From: Prochlorococcus sp. AG-363-A03
GTDB lineage: Bacteria; Cyanobacteriota; Cyanobacteriia; PCC-6307; Cyanobiaceae
DNA: 53,448 bases
Direction of reading: 5' to 3'
Assembly: GCA_003280445.1 (NCBI GenBank)
Contig: QCEW01000007.1
Location: 1 to 53,448, forward strand
Part shown: positions 7,098 through 42,038 of the stretch, piece after piece
How the letters are laid out: every line of letters starts with the position of its first letter
Numbering within the stretch: the stretch's first letter is position 1
The notes under the pieces: model-generated
The model's input: the letters and a program-made list of their open reading frames with translations, nothing else
Told to the model about the DNA's origin: nothing
The model's database searches: none
Position numbers and translations under genes: made by a program

Positions 7098-7303
7098 GTC
7101 GATAGCCGATTTGTCTTGGGGTTTTGACCCACATTTTTATGGATCAAATTAAAACAGGTTTAAACAAGAAACCCCTCTAGAAATTCCAATAACTAAAGGG
7201 GTTATTAATCGACTCGTACTATATAAAGTCAATTATGTCTTGATGAGGTTTGGCCTCAGTTGTATATATAGGCGAAATCAAGTTAGAAAACAAGAAAAGA
7301 TTG

Positions 7304-21953: not shown

Positions 21954-22100
21954 ATGAAAGAAACTACAACTCAATGGTTTCCTCCGAATTTTGATTCAAG
22001 CAAAGCTGAAAAATACAATGGATGGGCTGCCATGATTGGAATTATTTCTGGCATAGGTGCATATGCTATTACTGGACAAATTATTCCCGGAGTTTTCTAG
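21954..22100 (+). CDS. high-light-inducible protein (Hli/ELIP-like)
   Basis: 48 residues, MKETTTQWFPPNFDSSKAEK, then YNGWAAMIGIISGIGAYAIT and GQIIPGVF. This is the one-helix chlorophyll a/b-binding-like fold: the helix carries N-G-W/R-A-A-M-I-G and the protein ends in the typical TGQ-IIPG. Hli proteins bind pigment in the thylakoid membrane and protect photosystems under excess light and other stress. The usual Arg in NGRxAM is Trp here, as in some short Hli proteins. A second Hli is at 53185-53391. Confidence 0.88.
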   Translation: MKETTTQWFPPNFDSSKAEKYNGWAAMIGIISGIGAYAITGQIIPGVF

Positions 22101-24014: not shown

Positions 24015-24212
24015 ATGCCAATGACTTTATTTGCTTCTGCATTTCCTTGGCTCTGGCTTGCTGGAACAGATCTTGGAATAAATCATTTTACTACTGACTT
24101 AATTCTTGTTGTTTCGTTCGCAATTTTGACAGCTCTACCTATGTCATTTTTAAGGCCGACAATTAAAAAGTGGGAACAAGCTGGAGTCAAGAGCTCTCTT
24201 TTTACAAAGTAG
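24015..24212 (+). CDS. two-helix membrane protein
   Basis: 65 residues, MPMTLFASAFPWLWLAGTDL, then LILVVSFAILTALPMSFLRP and a basic tail. A paralogue on the minus strand at 25906-26076 keeps the same plan (MQITLLALAFSEWGIG, DLIVFLSVVLIFALPAGINR). Followed by a strong terminator. Function unknown. Confidence 0.7.
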   Translation: MPMTLFASAFPWLWLAGTDLGINHFTTDLILVVSFAILTALPMSFLRPTIKKWEQAGVKSSLFTK

Positions 24213-25905: not shown

Positions 25906-26076
25906 CTAGCTTTTTAATCTAGTAGTGAAAGCATCACCCTCAACAAAAATCTTTTTTCGATTAATACCCGCTGGTAAAGCAAAAATCAGTACTACAGATA
26001 GGAAAACAATTAAATCCAGTGGAAATCGACCAATTCCCCACTCTGAGAAAGCTAAAGCTAAAAGTGTGATTTGCAT
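25906..26076 (-). CDS. two-helix membrane protein
   Basis: 56 residues, MQITLLALAFSEWGIGRFPL, DLIVFLSVVLIFALPAGINR, then KKIFVEGDAFTTRLKS. Paralogue of 24015-24212: same start (M-x-x-T-L-x-A-x-A-F), same D-L-I helix and A-L-P turn. This identifies the minus strand as the coding one, against a plus-strand frame over the same bases. 26138-26740 shows no convincing gene. Confidence 0.65.
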   Translation of the reverse strand: MQITLLALAFSEWGIGRFPLDLIVFLSVVLIFALPAGINRKKIFVEGDAFTTRLKS

Positions 26077-28335: not shown

Positions 28336-28415
28336 TGAAAACTGCTGAATTACTTTTGATATTTTTCTCATTGTCATTTTCTTTTTTAGGAATATCTTTA
28401 CTTGTTTTTTATTAG
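28335..28415 (+). CDS. 26-residue transmembrane peptide
   Basis: MKTAELLLIFFSLSFSFLGI, then SLLVFY: essentially a single helix. Coupled by TAATG overlap to the acidic microprotein before it. Such peptides can be photosystem or transporter accessory subunits; unproven here. Confidence 0.5.
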   Translation: MKTAELLLIFFSLSFSFLGISLLVFY

Positions 28416-28539
28416 ACATTACTCAACCTTTTTTCATACAACTTACTTCTATTGGATTAATTACTTATTCTCATTGGATTTAAAAAGTGCTTTTATATAG
28501 ATTAAATAATCACAATCTTAGACTTAGATTTTTTACCTG

Positions 28540-28872
28540 ATGGAAGACCAAATTAATGCTGCCGAAAAAAGCACCTCTATTTCAGCCGAAATATGCCAAT
28601 GGTCAGGAGCTGTATTTGGTATTCTGTTTGGCATAGGGTTTTTCCTAGCTGAAGTTCAAAAGAACGACTTAAAATCTTTACCTTGGTGGAAACCAGTCTC
28701 TGCACTTGTCGCTGGAGCAGCAGTTTCAGCTCATGGTAACAATGTTGTTAATAATAAAAGGACAGCAAAATTAACTGCTTTATTAGTGAGATCAACAAAT
28801 AGCGCGTCTGAGTTGCCAATAGCAAAGTTATCGGAATATTCTGATCTTTTGGAGGACTCTGATAATCAATGA
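28540..28872 (+). CDS. small membrane-associated protein
   Basis: 110 residues, MEDQINAAEKSTSISAEICQ, a helix WSGAVFGILFGIGFFLAEVQ, then WWKPVSALVAGAAVSAHGNN and a charged helical end. Two hydrophobic segments. No known family. Confidence 0.6.
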   Translation: MEDQINAAEKSTSISAEICQWSGAVFGILFGIGFFLAEVQKNDLKSLPWWKPVSALVAGAAVSAHGNNVVNNKRTAKLTALLVRSTNSASELPIAKLSEYSDLLEDSDNQ

Positions 28873-28934
28873 CATATTAAGCTTCTCAGCAATTAAATAT
28901 TCATACTATTTTTTATAAAGTTTTCTTTTCTTAA

Positions 28935-29012
28935 ATGGCGAGAAAGGAAAAACCTAAAAACGTCAATGACAATGAAGAAAATATTAAAATTAGTTCTGTG
29001 TATTTCATTTGA
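28935..29012 (+). CDS. 25-residue charged peptide, doubtful
   Basis: MARKEKPKNVNDNEENIKIS, then SVYFI. Start is preceded by TTCTTAA only. It ends six bases before the convergent gene at 29019. Weak support. Confidence 0.3.
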   Translation: MARKEKPKNVNDNEENIKISSVYFI

Positions 29013-29018
29013 GACACT

Positions 29019-29207
29019 CTAGAAATTTACTCTTTGTGGTTGAGCCTGATAAGAACAGATACCAAATTGTAAACACTCCATTTCTTCATCGCTGTGTGAT
29101 GGATGCTTTGAAAAACTTAGTCTTTCAGATAGTTGACTAAGAACAAGTCGAGCAGCATTTTCTGCAGCCTCTGTAGTTAATTGAGCAAAGCGATTTCCGT
29201 AGGACAT
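29019..29207 (-). CDS. ECLQFGIC-motif protein 1
   Basis: 62 residues started at the Met of MSYGNRFAQLTTEAAENAAR (an ATG 21 bases upstream is possible). A helical amphipathic body is followed by SDEEMECLQFGICSYQAQPQ and RVNF. The C-terminal block E-C-L-Q-F-G-I-C-S/A-x-x-A-x-x-P is shared with 29616-29858 and 31190-31372, whose N-terminal parts differ. C-x5-C could form a disulfide or bind metal. Family unknown to me. Confidence 0.7.
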   Translation of the reverse strand: MSYGNRFAQLTTEAAENAARLVLSQLSERLSFSKHPSHSDEEMECLQFGICSYQAQPQRVNF

Positions 29208-29514
29208 AGGAGGTTCGATGATCCACAATTTATTTCTACTCCTATGGGGTGAATGACGACTAGAGAATAAACACTTAAGTATTTATCCCAATTCAATAAT
29301 CAATAATATGCCTATCAAATTTTGTACATTTTGACAAAGTTATTTCTCTGGAAATTCTGTGAAGATTTTAAGTGAGGTATGCAAAATTTATATAGTTGTA
29401 GAATTTGGTTTTTTTAGATTATTAGGTTTAATAGATTGAAAATCTAGTGGAACTTGATTGATCAGTGGTGATAACCTCCTTTCTAATTTGTCAGTAAAAC
29501 TTTATTCTGATTAA

Positions 29515-29601
29515 ATGACGGAAACCAAAAAGAACATATATCTAGAACAAAAATTTAGAGAATTAGATGAATTTATTCAAATGATTACTCAAGTGGCATA
29601 G
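29515..29601 (+). CDS. 28-residue microprotein, doubtful
   Basis: MTETKKNIYLEQKFRELDEF, then IQMITQVA. A single charged helix ending 14 bases before a convergent gene. Confidence 0.35.
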   Translation: MTETKKNIYLEQKFRELDEFIQMITQVA

Positions 29602-29615
29602 TGCTGGATTTGGTT

Positions 29616-29858
29616 TCATCCAAAATACAACTCATCTGGTCTAGGTGATTGGGCTTGCACAGCACAGATTCCAAACTGCAAGCATTCCTGTTCCTCATCT
29701 TTTCGTTGTTTTTCCGTCTGGATATTATTGAGGAATAATGATTGGATGTTGTGAGTTATAGTTTTGAATGGATTGAAAAACATAATTAAGATCCCACTAA
29801 ATATCCCTAACATTAATACTCTAATCGGGTAGCAAAAAACTAGAGAGGTTAACCCCAA
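29616..29858 (-). CDS. ECLQFGIC-motif membrane protein 2
   Basis: 80 residues. One or two N-terminal helices (MGLTSLVFCYPIRVLMLGIF, SGILIMFFNPF), a linker with HNIQSLFLNNIQTEKQR, then KDEEQECLQFGICAVQAQSP and RPDELYFG. The tail matches 29019-29207 and 31190-31372, here attached to a membrane anchor. Confidence 0.7.
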   Translation of the reverse strand: MGLTSLVFCYPIRVLMLGIFSGILIMFFNPFKTITHNIQSLFLNNIQTEKQRKDEEQECLQFGICAVQAQSPRPDELYFG

Positions 29859-29945
29859 AGTATTTATACGCCTTTACAGGGTGTGAAGAGACCGTTTTAA
29901 GTATCAAATGATGTGCCTAGATTTAACAATATCTAAATTCACCGA

Positions 29946-30488
29946 ATGATCAAAACAATAATAAGAGCAATGTATTCTGCTTTTATTTTTATTGTCTTAC
30001 TCTCAATTATTCTGACTGGCTGGACTTGTTTCGCTTTTATTTCCCAGCCCACAAAATCTGATGAAATAATTAATGTTATGAAAGATATGTACAAAAGTCA
30101 AAAGTCAGTAATCATTGACGTTGTTGACCTTTCGAAATTACTAATAATGGATAAAAGTAAAATAATAGCTAGGGAAGATAATAATCTTTTAATAGAAACA
30201 GAAATTGAATTGCTTACAGATGAAGAAGACAAGTCTTCTTTAGATGATCCGTTAATTCTAGAAGACAAGTCTCCTTTAGATGATCCGTTAATTCTAGAAG
30301 ACAAGTCTCCTTTAGATAATCCGTTAATTCTAGAAGACAATGGTGATAATCCTCTAGGGATAGTTATTGAACCATCTTTACCTGAACTAAGCGAAGAAAA
30401 TTATCCAGAAATTAGTGTAGGAACATTAGATAATAATGAGAGTGAGGTTTCTATGAATGAAATGAAAATTGGAATGGACATGAATTAA
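29946..30488 (+). CDS. membrane-anchored protein with 12-residue acidic repeats
   Basis: 180 residues. An N-terminal helix (YSAFIFIVLLSIILTGWTCF) is followed by a mixed region and then near-perfect 12-residue repeats of the type LDDPLILEDKSP (about residues 98-135), and an acidic Met/Asn-rich end. The low-complexity acidic part is probably extended. Function unknown. Confidence 0.7.
   Translation: MIKTIIRAMYSAFIFIVLLSIILTGWTCFAFISQPTKSDEIINVMKDMYKSQKSVIIDVVDLSKLLIMDKSKIIAREDNNLLIETEIELLTDEEDKSSLDDPLILEDKSPLDDPLILEDKSPLDNPLILEDNGDNPLGIVIEPSLPELSEENYPEISVGTLDNNESEVSMNEMKIGMDMN
30229..30340 (+). repeat. 36-base tandem repeat, about three units
   Basis: Units starting GAAGACAAGTCT and containing TTAGATGATCCGTTAATTCT repeat three times in frame, the second and third nearly identical. 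Unit length is a multiple of three, so copy-number change keeps the protein in frame. Very close identity suggests recent expansion. Confidence 0.8.
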
Positions 30489-30528
30489 GTCAGTTAAACG
30501 ATCTTTCTAAAAAGTCTTTAATATTGCT

Positions 30529-30702
30529 TTGCTTTCGATTTTTCTTAAGAATAATATTCTAACCTTAGTATTTGCACTTTGTGTTTCTACACCGCCTGTT
30601 TTCGCATGGGGAGAAGGTGGATGCTCCTTATCTAATAAGAATAAACCAAGTCAAGATGAGACGGTTGAGAAAGTTGATAGATCCTATCCTTCTGATAGCT
30701 AA
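30529..30702 (+). CDS. small secreted EGGCS protein
   Basis: 57 residues from TTG: MLSIFLKNNILTLVFALCVS, TPPVFAWGEGGCSLSNKNKP, then a charged tail. Signal peptide with cleavage after VFA, leaving W-G-E-G-G-C-S at the mature N-terminus. Intact relative of the broken gene at 78-221. Overlapping frame at 30572 is only the extension of the next gene. Confidence 0.6.
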   Translation: MLSIFLKNNILTLVFALCVSTPPVFAWGEGGCSLSNKNKPSQDETVEKVDRSYPSDS

Positions 30703-30712
30703 TTTCAAGAAA

Positions 30713-30970
30713 ATGGATGACTCATTTTTAATTCGATTTGTTTTTTTCTCTCTTGGTCTTCTTTTGATTGTTTTTCCCGTAGGTCTTAATGCAGATGAAA
30801 TAGATTCATCGCATGTAGAATCAGACCCTACTGAAATCGTTCAAGCTCCTGCTCCTAGGCAAATGACAGAAAAGCAAATGAATGATCTTTTTGGCGAGGA
30901 TCCCTATTTAGGCCAAACTTCTTATCTTCAGTCTCCGGATGGCTTTAGTCAAAGAGAAAAATCAAGATAA
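30713..30970 (+). CDS. small secreted acidic protein
   Basis: 85 residues from ATG at 30713: signal peptide FLIRFVFFSLGLLLIVFPVG (ends about LNA), then DEIDSSHVESDPTEIVQAPA and PRQMTEKQMNDLFGEDPYLG. Starts ten bases after the preceding gene, so probably cotranscribed. Function unknown. Confidence 0.65.
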   Translation: MDDSFLIRFVFFSLGLLLIVFPVGLNADEIDSSHVESDPTEIVQAPAPRQMTEKQMNDLFGEDPYLGQTSYLQSPDGFSQREKSR

Positions 30971-31189
30971 TTAAAATATTATTATCGAGAAAAGCCAAAG
31001 TAAAGTGTTGAGAAAAAGTTGCCTCCTATTAATAATTTCTTTCAAGAAAAGCATTATTTGATCCTTTGACAATTGTCTCTATGTATTGAATTGACTGTCA
31101 GTGACTGTATAAATACTTGAGTGTTCCTTACCATAGATTTCTTAATCCAATATGAGTAGAAATTAAGCAGGTTGTTTAGATGTCTAACC

Positions 31190-31372
31190 ATGCCATTCTC
31201 AAAGCAATTATTTCGAAATTTTTCCGGGTTTTCCATTCAAGGAAATGAAATGTCTGAGTTGTTTTCTAATTACAAGCCAAAATATGATGATGATGTTATG
31301 GAGTGCTTGCAATTTGGTATCTGTTCCACGCCTCCAGCGCCCCCAAGAGAAATACCCTATTTTCACTTTTGA
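31190..31372 (+). CDS. ECLQFGIC-motif protein 3
   Basis: 60 residues from ATG at 31190 (MPFSKQLFRNFSGFSIQGNE); a later Met at 31250 would give 40. Ends DDDVMECLQFGICSTPPAPP and REIPYFHF. The motif is identical over eight residues to those at 29019 and 29616 although the N-terminal parts are unrelated. Minus-strand frames over it are shadows. Confidence 0.7.
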   Translation: MPFSKQLFRNFSGFSIQGNEMSELFSNYKPKYDDDVMECLQFGICSTPPAPPREIPYFHF

Positions 31373-31421
31373 AAACACCTTCATTCGATACCTTTTCACT
31401 ATTTACTAGTAATTAATTAAG

Positions 31422-31634
31422 CTAATTAGCCAAAGTTAGCCAGCGTAAAATTATTAAAATCAAAATAGTCGTAACCAAAGGGAATGCTGGGTAACGAGTT
31501 TTGAAATTAGCAGGAGGCCAAGGAGACCAGGAGATTAGTCTTCCTTTGGGTTCTTTAATTATCTCTTTTTTTTCTGAAGTTTTTGACGTCTTTGGGATAA
31601 ACCCAAGTTTTTTGTTTTTCTTCGCTTCTGCCAT
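31422..31634 (-). CDS. DUF2839-like membrane protein
   Basis: 70 residues, MAEAKKNKKLGFIPKTSKTS, a linker with RLISWSPWPPANFKTRYPAF, and a C-terminal helix PLVTTILILIILRWLTLAN. The M-x-E-A-K-x-x-K-x-L-G start and one C-terminal helix parallel 11923-12141. Confidence 0.65.
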   Translation of the reverse strand: MAEAKKNKKLGFIPKTSKTSEKKEIIKEPKGRLISWSPWPPANFKTRYPAFPLVTTILILIILRWLTLAN

Positions 31635-31745
31635 AGTTGTTTCATTTAAATAAATATTAAAAGGTCAATTTGCAGAGTGTGACTTTGAGAGTAACTATAT
31701 TGAGCTTATTTTTTGTTTTTTTTAAGATGATTTGTACACACATCT

Positions 31746-32003
31746 ATGCAGAAGTTGAATAGGATTTTAGTTGTTATTTTTTGTGCACTCTTCACTAAAG
31801 AAGCTTTAGCTCTAAGAATCTCTCGTGCAATGTTCAATGAGAGAAAAAGTATTGAGAGCTTTAATGCTTATCAATGTATCCGAAGTTATCTAGTTGACTT
31901 GTCAATGCAAGAGTTAATTGAACTCGCGAAAGACTATGGAATCGAAGTGGGTAAAGCTTCCTCGTTGAATAAAAAATTGGAGGTTAACCCTACACGCGGT
32001 TGA
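31746..32003 (+). CDS. small secreted helical protein
   Basis: 85 residues. Signal peptide (RILVVIFCALFTKEALA), then LRISRAMFNERKSIESFNAY, QCIRSYLVDLSMQELIELAK. Helical with one Cys. Resembles in size the Cys-containing exported proteins at 34931, 49895 and 52434. Confidence 0.55.
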   Translation: MQKLNRILVVIFCALFTKEALALRISRAMFNERKSIESFNAYQCIRSYLVDLSMQELIELAKDYGIEVGKASSLNKKLEVNPTRG

Positions 32004-41473: not shown

Positions 41474-41572
41474 ATGCATAACATAATAGCTTTTGTAGCA
41501 ACCGCTACCAAAACGTTCAACTCGTTACATAGCGAGCCGCATCTCGATTTAAGCCAAGGAACGGGGACTTAA
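41474..41572 (+). CDS. 32-residue upstream ORF in the DUF4278 leader
   Basis: MHNIIAFVATATKTFNSLHS, then EPHLDLSQGTGT, ATG to TAA. It lies between the -10 box and the DUF4278 start, ending 19 bases before it. Base composition is markedly richer in G+C than the surroundings. It may be a leader peptide, or the conserved-looking DNA may act as structured RNA and the frame be incidental. Confidence 0.4.
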   Translation: MHNIIAFVATATKTFNSLHSEPHLDLSQGTGT

Positions 41573-41575
41573 ATC
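41546..41575 (+). promoter_or_regulatory. leader hairpin before DUF4278
   Basis: GATTTAAG and CTTAAATC form a perfect eight-base-pair stem with a 14-base loop containing AAGGAACGGGG. The loop's AAGGA is ribosome-site-like and 17 bases of spacer lead to the start codon, so the hairpin could control initiation or stability. Confidence 0.5.
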
Positions 41576-41591
41576 AACATTCGGAGTATGG

Positions 41592-41768
41592 ATGATGACA
41601 ACTCTTTTATATCGTGGACAAAACTATGTCCAGCACAAAGAGCAAAAAGCGCAAAAAGATTGTGTTGAGCTGACTTACAGGCGTAATCACTACAACACAT
41701 GCAGAAGCGATGCTAAGGCTGAGCTAAATGCCCAATTGGCTTATCGCGGTCATAGCTATCAACATTAG
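41592..41768 (+). CDS. DUF4278 protein
   Basis: 58 residues, MMTTLLYRGQNYVQHKEQKA, QKDCVELTYRRNHYNTCRSD, AKAELNAQLAYRGHSYQH. The L-x-Y-R-G-x-x-Y motif appears at both ends with a degenerate L-T-Y-R-R-x-x-Y in the middle, the signature of DUF4278. Two Met codons open it. It has its own promoter, leader and terminator, implying strong and independent expression. Molecular role unknown. Confidence 0.82.
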   Translation: MMTTLLYRGQNYVQHKEQKAQKDCVELTYRRNHYNTCRSDAKAELNAQLAYRGHSYQH

Positions 41769-41873: not shown

Positions 41874-42038
41874 TTAGCCCTCATAAACTTTGCAAGTAGA
41901 AGCTGTTGGATGATTACTACATTCTTTTTCCCAAAACTCATCTCTAGTTTCATTGGGAACCGTGTAAGAAAAGTCATGCATTGTTCGAATATCACTTAAT
42001 GCATTTTTGATTATGTTCAAAGGAGTTTTTAGTTTCAT
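41874..42038 (-). CDS. small soluble protein
   Basis: 54 residues, MKLKTPLNIIKNALSDIRTM, HDFSYTVPNETRDEFWEKEC, SNHPTASTCKVYEG. Two Cys near the C-terminus. Convergent with the DUF4278 unit. Function unknown. Confidence 0.55.
   Translation of the reverse strand: MKLKTPLNIIKNALSDIRTMHDFSYTVPNETRDEFWEKECSNHPTASTCKVYEG

Follow-up and report, generated by a model that had tools for sequence, protein, structure and literature searches.

An apparently undescribed family of Prochlorococcus microproteins with a near-invariant C-x5-C tail

Prochlorosins are multi-copy short precursors of picocyanobacteria, in which a conserved leader is followed by a variable C-terminal core that bears cysteines. In CP12 the C-terminal part consists, in the complex, of one helix and a disulfide; eight cyanobacterial forms of CP12 keeping or lacking the cysteine pairs, and cyanophage proteins like the CP12 C-terminal region, are described (PMC3906501). 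In Synechocystis, the C-terminal CP12 pair heads a table of cysteine peptides that respond to light, and the C-terminal pair of phosphoribulokinase (PRK), C229-C235, has C-x5-C spacing and is reducible by thioredoxin (PMC13214033). The present analysis concerns three small genes, here named A, B and C, that encode the C-terminal core ECLQFGIC and are found within 53,448 nucleotides (nt) of Prochlorococcus sp. AG-363-A03 (assembly GCA_003280445.1, contig QCEW01000007.1, positions 1 to 53,448 of the forward strand). This whole stretch is called the window. As judged from profile comparisons, A, B and C are shown by way of intermediate members to be diverged paralogs of one Prochlorococcus microprotein family, which is apparently undescribed. 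The family is tentatively read as a set of small adaptors whose C-x5-C tail would be a redox-switchable docking element acting near a membrane, with a layout like that of C-terminal CP12 without being CP12; this is a preference held with considerable doubt.

The ECLQFGIC core is real and not a product of chance, the coding pattern for CLQFGIC having three matches in the window and none in any of 100 dinucleotide shuffles. The three open reading frames (ORFs) listed in a first-pass annotation made from the window alone are present with the ends given there, 29019-29207 (minus strand), 29616-29858 (minus) and 31190-31372 (plus), and it is true of all three that an identical E-C-L-Q-F-G-I-C is preceded by an acidic stretch. 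Gene A (29019-29207, minus) encodes 62 amino acids (aa) ending DEEMECLQFGICSYQAQPQRVNF and has its core at 29055-29078; gene C (31190-31372, plus) encodes 60 aa ending EIPYFHF with the core at 31301-31324. The starts of both were unchanged after comparison with relatives. The middle ORF, on the other hand, opens at an upstream TTG at 29858, while the proteins of relatives start at an ATG that corresponds to position 29783 (M-[SF]-x-N-P-F-K). Gene B is thus 29616-29783 (minus), 55 aa long with its core at 29664-29687, and the membrane anchor once read into it is sequence upstream of the gene. An A-x-x-P said to follow every core is found in B (AQSP) and is absent from A (AQPQ) and C (APPR). Each of the three cores is encoded by different synonymous codons, and the identity is therefore one of protein and not of one recent DNA copy. 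Searched with the CLQFGIC coding pattern, the organism's own genome (1.37 Mb, 76.8% complete) holds these exact copies and no other; a fourth family copy with the core ECLQFGNC is found on another of its contigs (G000:C11).

The bodies in front of the core were originally described as unrelated and the tail as mobile. Searches with the upstream element and with profiles brought in further types, and these changed the picture. Types D and D' (MSCGNPFKHAIEDV...) have the core ECLQFGIC or ECLQFGNC, type E has ECLTYGFC, type F/H ECLHFGFC or ECLQFGFC, and type G (MSCGNPFNHLLKNV...) ECMQFGIC, while the copies from a genus labelled g18 (MTYGNLIKNKIQ... and MTCGNPIKHK...) mostly have ECMQFGIC. Bodies from which the core and everything after it had been removed were compared profile against profile (45 pairs), and significance was calculated with 100 column shuffles for each of 16 pairs. 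With the tail gone, A links to F/H (87.5%), B to G (77%) and F/H (75%), and C to G (95%) and D (94%). None of the 100 shuffles reached the observed score for A-F/H, B-G, B-F/H, C-G, C-D, D-G, g18-G or E-G; A-G is marginal (1/100). The direct comparisons are not significant, since 2/100 shuffles reached the score for A-B, 62/100 for A-C and 46/100 for B-C. Kinship of A, B and C is accordingly shown through the intermediates only, and was invisible to a reader of the window alone. On these links a mobile tail on unrelated bodies is rejected: it is the tail that stayed fixed and the bodies that diverged. Upstream DNA, too, is common to A, B, C and D.

The sequences collected for the family are 48-70 aa long. 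A start that is often MSCGNPF is followed by an N-terminal helix, an acidic linker and a short second helix carrying E-C-L-Q-F, and then by a glycine turn, the second cysteine and 3-19 more residues, often ending E-[IV]-P-[YF]-F-H-[FY]. AlphaFold models place the helices of A at residues 3-33 and 40-48 and those of a G copy at 6-24 and 33-41; in both, the second helix stops just before the core glycine.

Purifying selection on the C-x5-C tail peptide, which the first-pass annotation had called strongly conserved, was confirmed by a test that does not depend on the core. In 141 unique coding sequences the ratio of nonsynonymous to synonymous differences per site (pN/pS), where defined, spans 0.00-0.07 for the core, 0.10-0.82 for the body and 0.10-0.69 for the residues that follow the core. 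Eight of the 141, including window B with the wrong start, fell in an unclassified bin excluded from the per-group values. For two C copies the start was set several residues too far upstream, and one of the two was dropped from the body-profile comparison. These sequences were gathered with a pattern that fixes both cysteines, the glycine and part of the other core positions. As invariance at the cysteines and glycine is then true by construction, the comparison was repeated with profiles of the body alone on 41 genomes of the window's genus, a test that covers A and C and leaves B and the remaining types outside it. A was found in 26 genomes and C in 30 (31 matches, 30 of them read), and EC[LM]QFGIC is present in 26/26 A and 30/30 C, with M in two of each. 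For A (24 sequences) pN/pS is 0.009/0.527 (0.02) in the core versus 0.130/0.322 (0.40) in the body, and for C (29 sequences) 0.004/0.334 (0.01) versus 0.074/0.214 (0.35), values that omit three copies missed in parsing. The core is thus more constrained than the body in A and C, and no relaxed selection is seen in the tail. Decayed copies do occur, with ECLQFDNG in G146, ECMQFGIY in G374 and a frame with ECLEVYIC in L053.

Two serious rivals of a redox docking tail draw on this conservation. Eight contiguous near-invariant residues with freely changing bodies resemble a binding motif, and where the core differs between paralogs, several positions show conservative exchanges (L/M, F/Y). The tail might therefore be a constitutive docking tag, a ligand for one receptor such as an enzyme, a protease adaptor, or a carboxysome or photosystem subunit, with no redox switching and with cysteines that make contacts or a fixed fold. 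Two constant cysteines are, however, unusual in a plain peptide ligand within the reducing cytosol, and the tag is a possibility on the improbable side. The other rival is a metal or Fe-S site, in which a probably dimeric protein would bind Zn, Cu or Fe through the tail cysteines, together with further cysteines in some types, and work as a metal chaperone, store or sensor. Both cysteines are kept in every A and C found by body alone, and additional ones are present in D (five cysteines in 14/14 proteins), E (three in 4/4), G (three in 5/5) and F/H (three in 5/6). On the other hand, window A, B (from its ATG) and C have only two cysteines each and no histidine adjoining the core, a two-ligand site requires a dimer, and there is no metal-related Pfam family among 15 neighbouring ORFs of the window. 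Metal binding is accordingly regarded as somewhat unlikely, and the redox-switchable docking tail is kept as the preferred reading.

The tail is also found in other genomes. The CLQFGIC pattern occurs in 39/400 genomes of the window's taxonomic family, representing 5/59 genera, while a profile of 19 members matches 94/400 genomes in 5/59 genera and none in the other 54 genera. By genus, the profile matches are in 39/41 genomes of the window's genus, 45/68 of g18, 8/14 of g11, 1/3 of g4 and 1/1 of g28, with denominators counted on the list of the CLQFGIC scan on the assumption of the same genome draw, and with many of the genomes incomplete. Seven genomes that are at least 99% complete (G056, G086, G110, G130, G146, G161 and G173), all of the window's genus, have 3 to 6 profile matches each. 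A GC content of 28-30% in the four g18 loci measured, together with gene content, suggests that g18 is high-light Prochlorococcus. In a class-wide draw 10/291 genomes match, nine of them in the same family; the tenth, a weak match in another cyanobacterial family (G421, E 2.6e-4), has one internal stop and no ATG before it and is read as chance. A scan of 84,980 species, made with the exact ECLQFGIC coding pattern and so blind to variants like ECMQFGIC, found 55 stretches, of which 42 carry Prochlorococcus in their title. The other 13 score 12-28 bits against the family profile, roughly as much as a bare core might yield, compared with 81.6 for gene A; six lie at most 11 aa from a stop and four are one conserved Dyadobacter stretch. 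They are likewise read as chance. No copy was found in viral_contigs (three patterns) or in phages (queried with A and one g18 copy), and a phage origin has been set aside.

It had been remarked that no described family has this signature, and none was found in Pfam, NCBIfam or the PDB, nor were the motif strings found in full-text literature. Pfam scans up to E=10 gave no CP12 (PF02672) match, and no significant match of any kind, for A, B, C, D', E, F, an A from another genus, another B and a g18-type copy, types G and H not being among those scanned. Nothing came near the cut-off for a family in NCBIfam, and a PDB sequence search with a 71-sequence profile gave no match up to E=10. Neither the motif strings nor a description of the family turned up in the literature covered, which extends to small and island proteins of Prochlorococcus and to few subscription papers, and the negative does not prove that the family is absent from print.

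The proteins are short, occur as several paralogs in one genome and have a C-terminus with cysteines, features that would also be seen in precursors of a modified or secreted peptide, either a ribosomally synthesised and post-translationally modified one or a pheromone, the tail being the product and the body the leader. The likeness to prochlorosins and Nif11 proteins lies in just these features, multi-copy short picocyanobacterial proteins with cysteines in the C-terminal region. The family nevertheless has a constant tail and a variable body, the reverse of prochlorosins, and no Nif11 or other significant Pfam match. A lanthipeptide was rejected, as the LanC-like domain PF05147 is absent from 8/8 genomes (E <= 0.01; the organism's own genome is incomplete, and other modification enzymes were not searched). 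A precursor role is thus very unlikely.

An upstream element common to A, B, C and D, (T)ATAAATACTT...GTT...CTCTA...GAGTAG, has its GAGTAG about 35-40 nt before the ATG. In the window its conserved copies are at 29211-29288 (minus) for A, reading ATAAATACTTAAGTGTTTATTCTCTAG...AGGAGTAGAAAT, at 29781-29870 (minus) for B and at 31106-31192 (plus) for C. A sequence model, R1, was built from 22 upstream regions and run on 16 genomes; the window copies and two D copies are members of its training set, so that their scores are not independent. Of 16 matches at new loci, 14 were read, and at these loci, which were not known from the core pattern, 12/14 matches (E <= 1e-6) precede a family ORF: eight D', which are close to the trained D, three E and one F. 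Of the remaining two, one is an E locus that has lost its coding part (G000:C19) and the other a decayed copy (G146). A promoter with a 5' leader is a possible identity for the element, perhaps with an operator, as it is partly palindromic in A. An RNA-structured leader was rejected, since the 22 upstream regions have no consensus pair and Rfam, searched up to E=5, gave nothing in 28400-31800. Promoter and terminator counts from simple scans are close to those of shuffles (13 vs 12.9 and 1 vs 1.6, respectively). At a D locus a weaker copy of the element stands in front of an unrelated 56-aa gene. The H-type genes (L219, L221 and L223) have a different, strongly conserved upstream region of about 100 nt with the inverted stretches GGTCTC/GAGACC and CCCTG/CAGGG.

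Downstream of A, 10 nt past its stop, lies a conserved ORF for a 25-aa hydrophobic micropeptide, MKYTELILIFSSLSLTFLGFSFLAI (28931-29008, minus). A gene of this type is found 9-13 nt after A in 19/21 sequences and a close homolog after E in 4/4, while D is followed at 27-30 nt by a different 44-aa hydrophobic protein in 12/14. The A and E micropeptides are hydrophobic and 23-27 aa long. With a pN of 0.038 and a pS of 0.341 for the A micropeptide (19 sequences) and 0.055 and 0.298 for the D one (12 sequences), both are under purifying selection. The A/E micropeptide pattern was found in 8/17 genomes searched, all of the window's genus and with one or two sites each, and among genes located in this way the core is present in 8/8 A loci and 3/3 intact E loci. 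No such hydrophobic gene follows B (0/18), C (0/26 and 0/9) or G (0/5), and pairing with a micropeptide is therefore not general; the hydrophobic ORFs found after A of other genera (2/9), F/H (1/6) and g18 (3/19) are unlike the A, D and E micropeptides. Two E loci, one a deletion (G000) and one a relic (G110), retain the micropeptide although the tail gene has gone. In the former (L152, G000:C19:21500-25307, about 2530-2700) the coding sequence of E that in L149 stands between two AGGAGGTTT copies is absent, which leaves the upstream element directly before the micropeptide gene.

This arrangement bears on two other explanations. As A and E each form a unit of two genes, one of which encodes a hydrophobic peptide of 23-27 aa, these could be toxin-antitoxin-like pairs, with the micropeptide as toxin and the tail protein as antidote. 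Such a pair is quite improbable, given that in G000 and G110 the supposed toxin outlives the E tail gene, even if A could still cross-protect, and that B, C and G have no micropeptide. Alternatively, a conserved motif close to the C-terminus, a micropeptide 9-30 nt downstream in A, D and E, and a GGAGG adjoining the stop of E would fit a translation-arrest or leader peptide that controls the micropeptide. The distance from core to stop nevertheless varies from 3 to 19 residues, and the conserved hydrophobic ORF is absent after B, C (0/35 in all) and G, where other downstream genes were unscored; this explanation is the hardest to believe.

In the g18 loci of about 8-10 kb, a small protein with a hydrophobic start and the tail FC-x-[KE]-S-x-[STG]-[ND]-P-Y-C is present in 15/20, and in three it lies directly upstream of the family gene on the same strand; no chance control was run for these neighbour counts (20 loci, L192-L211). 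A twin C-x3-C protein (CLRSCE...) was seen in 12/20 of the same loci. The window itself encodes two small hydrophobic proteins at 24015-24212 (plus) and 25906-26076 (minus), both matching the same place in L041. In L041, L042 and L046, which are from other genomes, an A-type gene has a homolog of the former no more than about 2.5 kb away.

The redox-switchable docking tail is favoured because the layout recalls the CP12 element, because the CP12 pair is light-responsive and because the PRK pair has C-x5-C spacing. A link to the membrane is suggested by the hydrophobic micropeptides after A, D and E and by the g18 neighbour with a hydrophobic start, and co-regulation by the D', E and F loci reached with R1. 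We infer the redox state, the partner and the location of the tail proteins. The C-x5-C pair would be a dithiol in the cytosol, oxidised to a disulfide in the dark or under stress, and the tail would dock on one common partner at or near a photosynthetic membrane, while the diverged N-helices may direct the paralogs to separate targets or locations. Where a hydrophobic micropeptide is co-encoded, as with A, D and E, the tail protein might act together with this micropeptide, which would bring it to the membrane, and the shared upstream element could switch the set on together. Such a mechanism would resemble that of the C-terminal cysteine-pair element of CP12.

CP12, which is marked by redox-dependent binding to GAPDH and PRK, and the family are both small proteins in which a short tail comes after a C-terminal cysteine pair that stands beside a short helix and a turn. 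CP12, however, has C-x8-C-x-V-Y where the family has C-x5-C (26/26 A, 30/30 C), and PF02672 does not match the types included in the Pfam scans; the CP12 of the organism's own genome reads CDANPDEPECLVY. With the C-terminal pair of Synechocystis PRK the family has the C-x5-C spacing in common, but PRK is a large enzyme, and that of the organism's own genome has two cysteines 24 residues apart and no C-x5-C. These two are the only cysteines in that PRK (L246), and the CP12 (L226) has only its C-terminal pair, so that Calvin-cycle redox control may differ from that of other cyanobacteria. High-light-inducible proteins (HLIPs) are also encoded by small genes, and HLIP-like ORFs were seen in 5/20 g18 loci and at 21954-22100 in the window, but the family does not have the HLIP-type NG..A..G...GQ.PG motif and no sequence relation was seen.

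A 54-aa microprotein encoded at 41874-42038 (minus), MKLKTPLNIIKNALSDIRTMHDF...FWEKECSNHPTASTCKVYEG, carries the CP12-like C-terminal signature C-x2-HP-x4-C-K-V-Y and may belong to the published C-terminal forms of CP12. Similar tails are found in 13/20 g18 loci, in L215 and in L156, where the protein has 63.5% identity to one in cyanophage P-TIM68; three relatives gave no significant Pfam match. A common N-terminus of these microproteins and the family looked plausible by eye and was rejected, as column shuffles reach the observed score.

Several observations weigh against the redox docking tail. The likeness to CP12 is one of layout and not of homology, and PF02672 finds a separate CP12 gene in 6/6 genomes. 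The AlphaFold models of A and the G copy are weak, with a predicted local distance difference test score (pLDDT) of 72.8 and 61.0 and a predicted template modelling score (pTM) of 0.36 and 0.25, respectively, and Foldseek gave no match for them in the PDB at E <= 0.001. The N-helix exceeds shuffled sequences in amphipathicity only to some extent, with the following mean shuffle fractions: D, 0.01; A, 0.06 and 0.12; B, F/H, G and g18, 0.09-0.17; C and E, 0.37-0.46. In type D the body, with a pN/pS of 0.10, differs little from the core (0.07) in the table of 141 sequences. B, C and G lack the micropeptide, the g18 neighbours were counted against no chance expectation, and the upstream element was not seen as such before the g18 copies, whose upstream DNA differs.

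Elsewhere in the window, a Glutamine-II riboswitch (RF01704, 65.8 bits) at 41511-41573 (plus) lies just before a 58-aa ORF at 41592-41768, and a match to the small RNA Yfr13 (RF02364, 64.7 bits) is found at 7184-7257 (minus).

Few photosynthetic organisms of the ocean outnumber Prochlorococcus, and for many of its small genes no role is known. In this family an eight-residue peptide is kept nearly unchanged while the rest drifts, which makes the tail a single testable module, and the family may be an unstudied regulatory device. A bolder and rather unlikely possibility is a Prochlorococcus-specific two-part switch, in which promoter-linked adaptors with a near-invariant redox-closing tail, together with single-span membrane micropeptides, would reversibly clamp a photosynthetic or stress complex, as a counterpart of the CP12 principle on another target. 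One synthetic tail peptide could be the bait for the partner of several paralogs at once.

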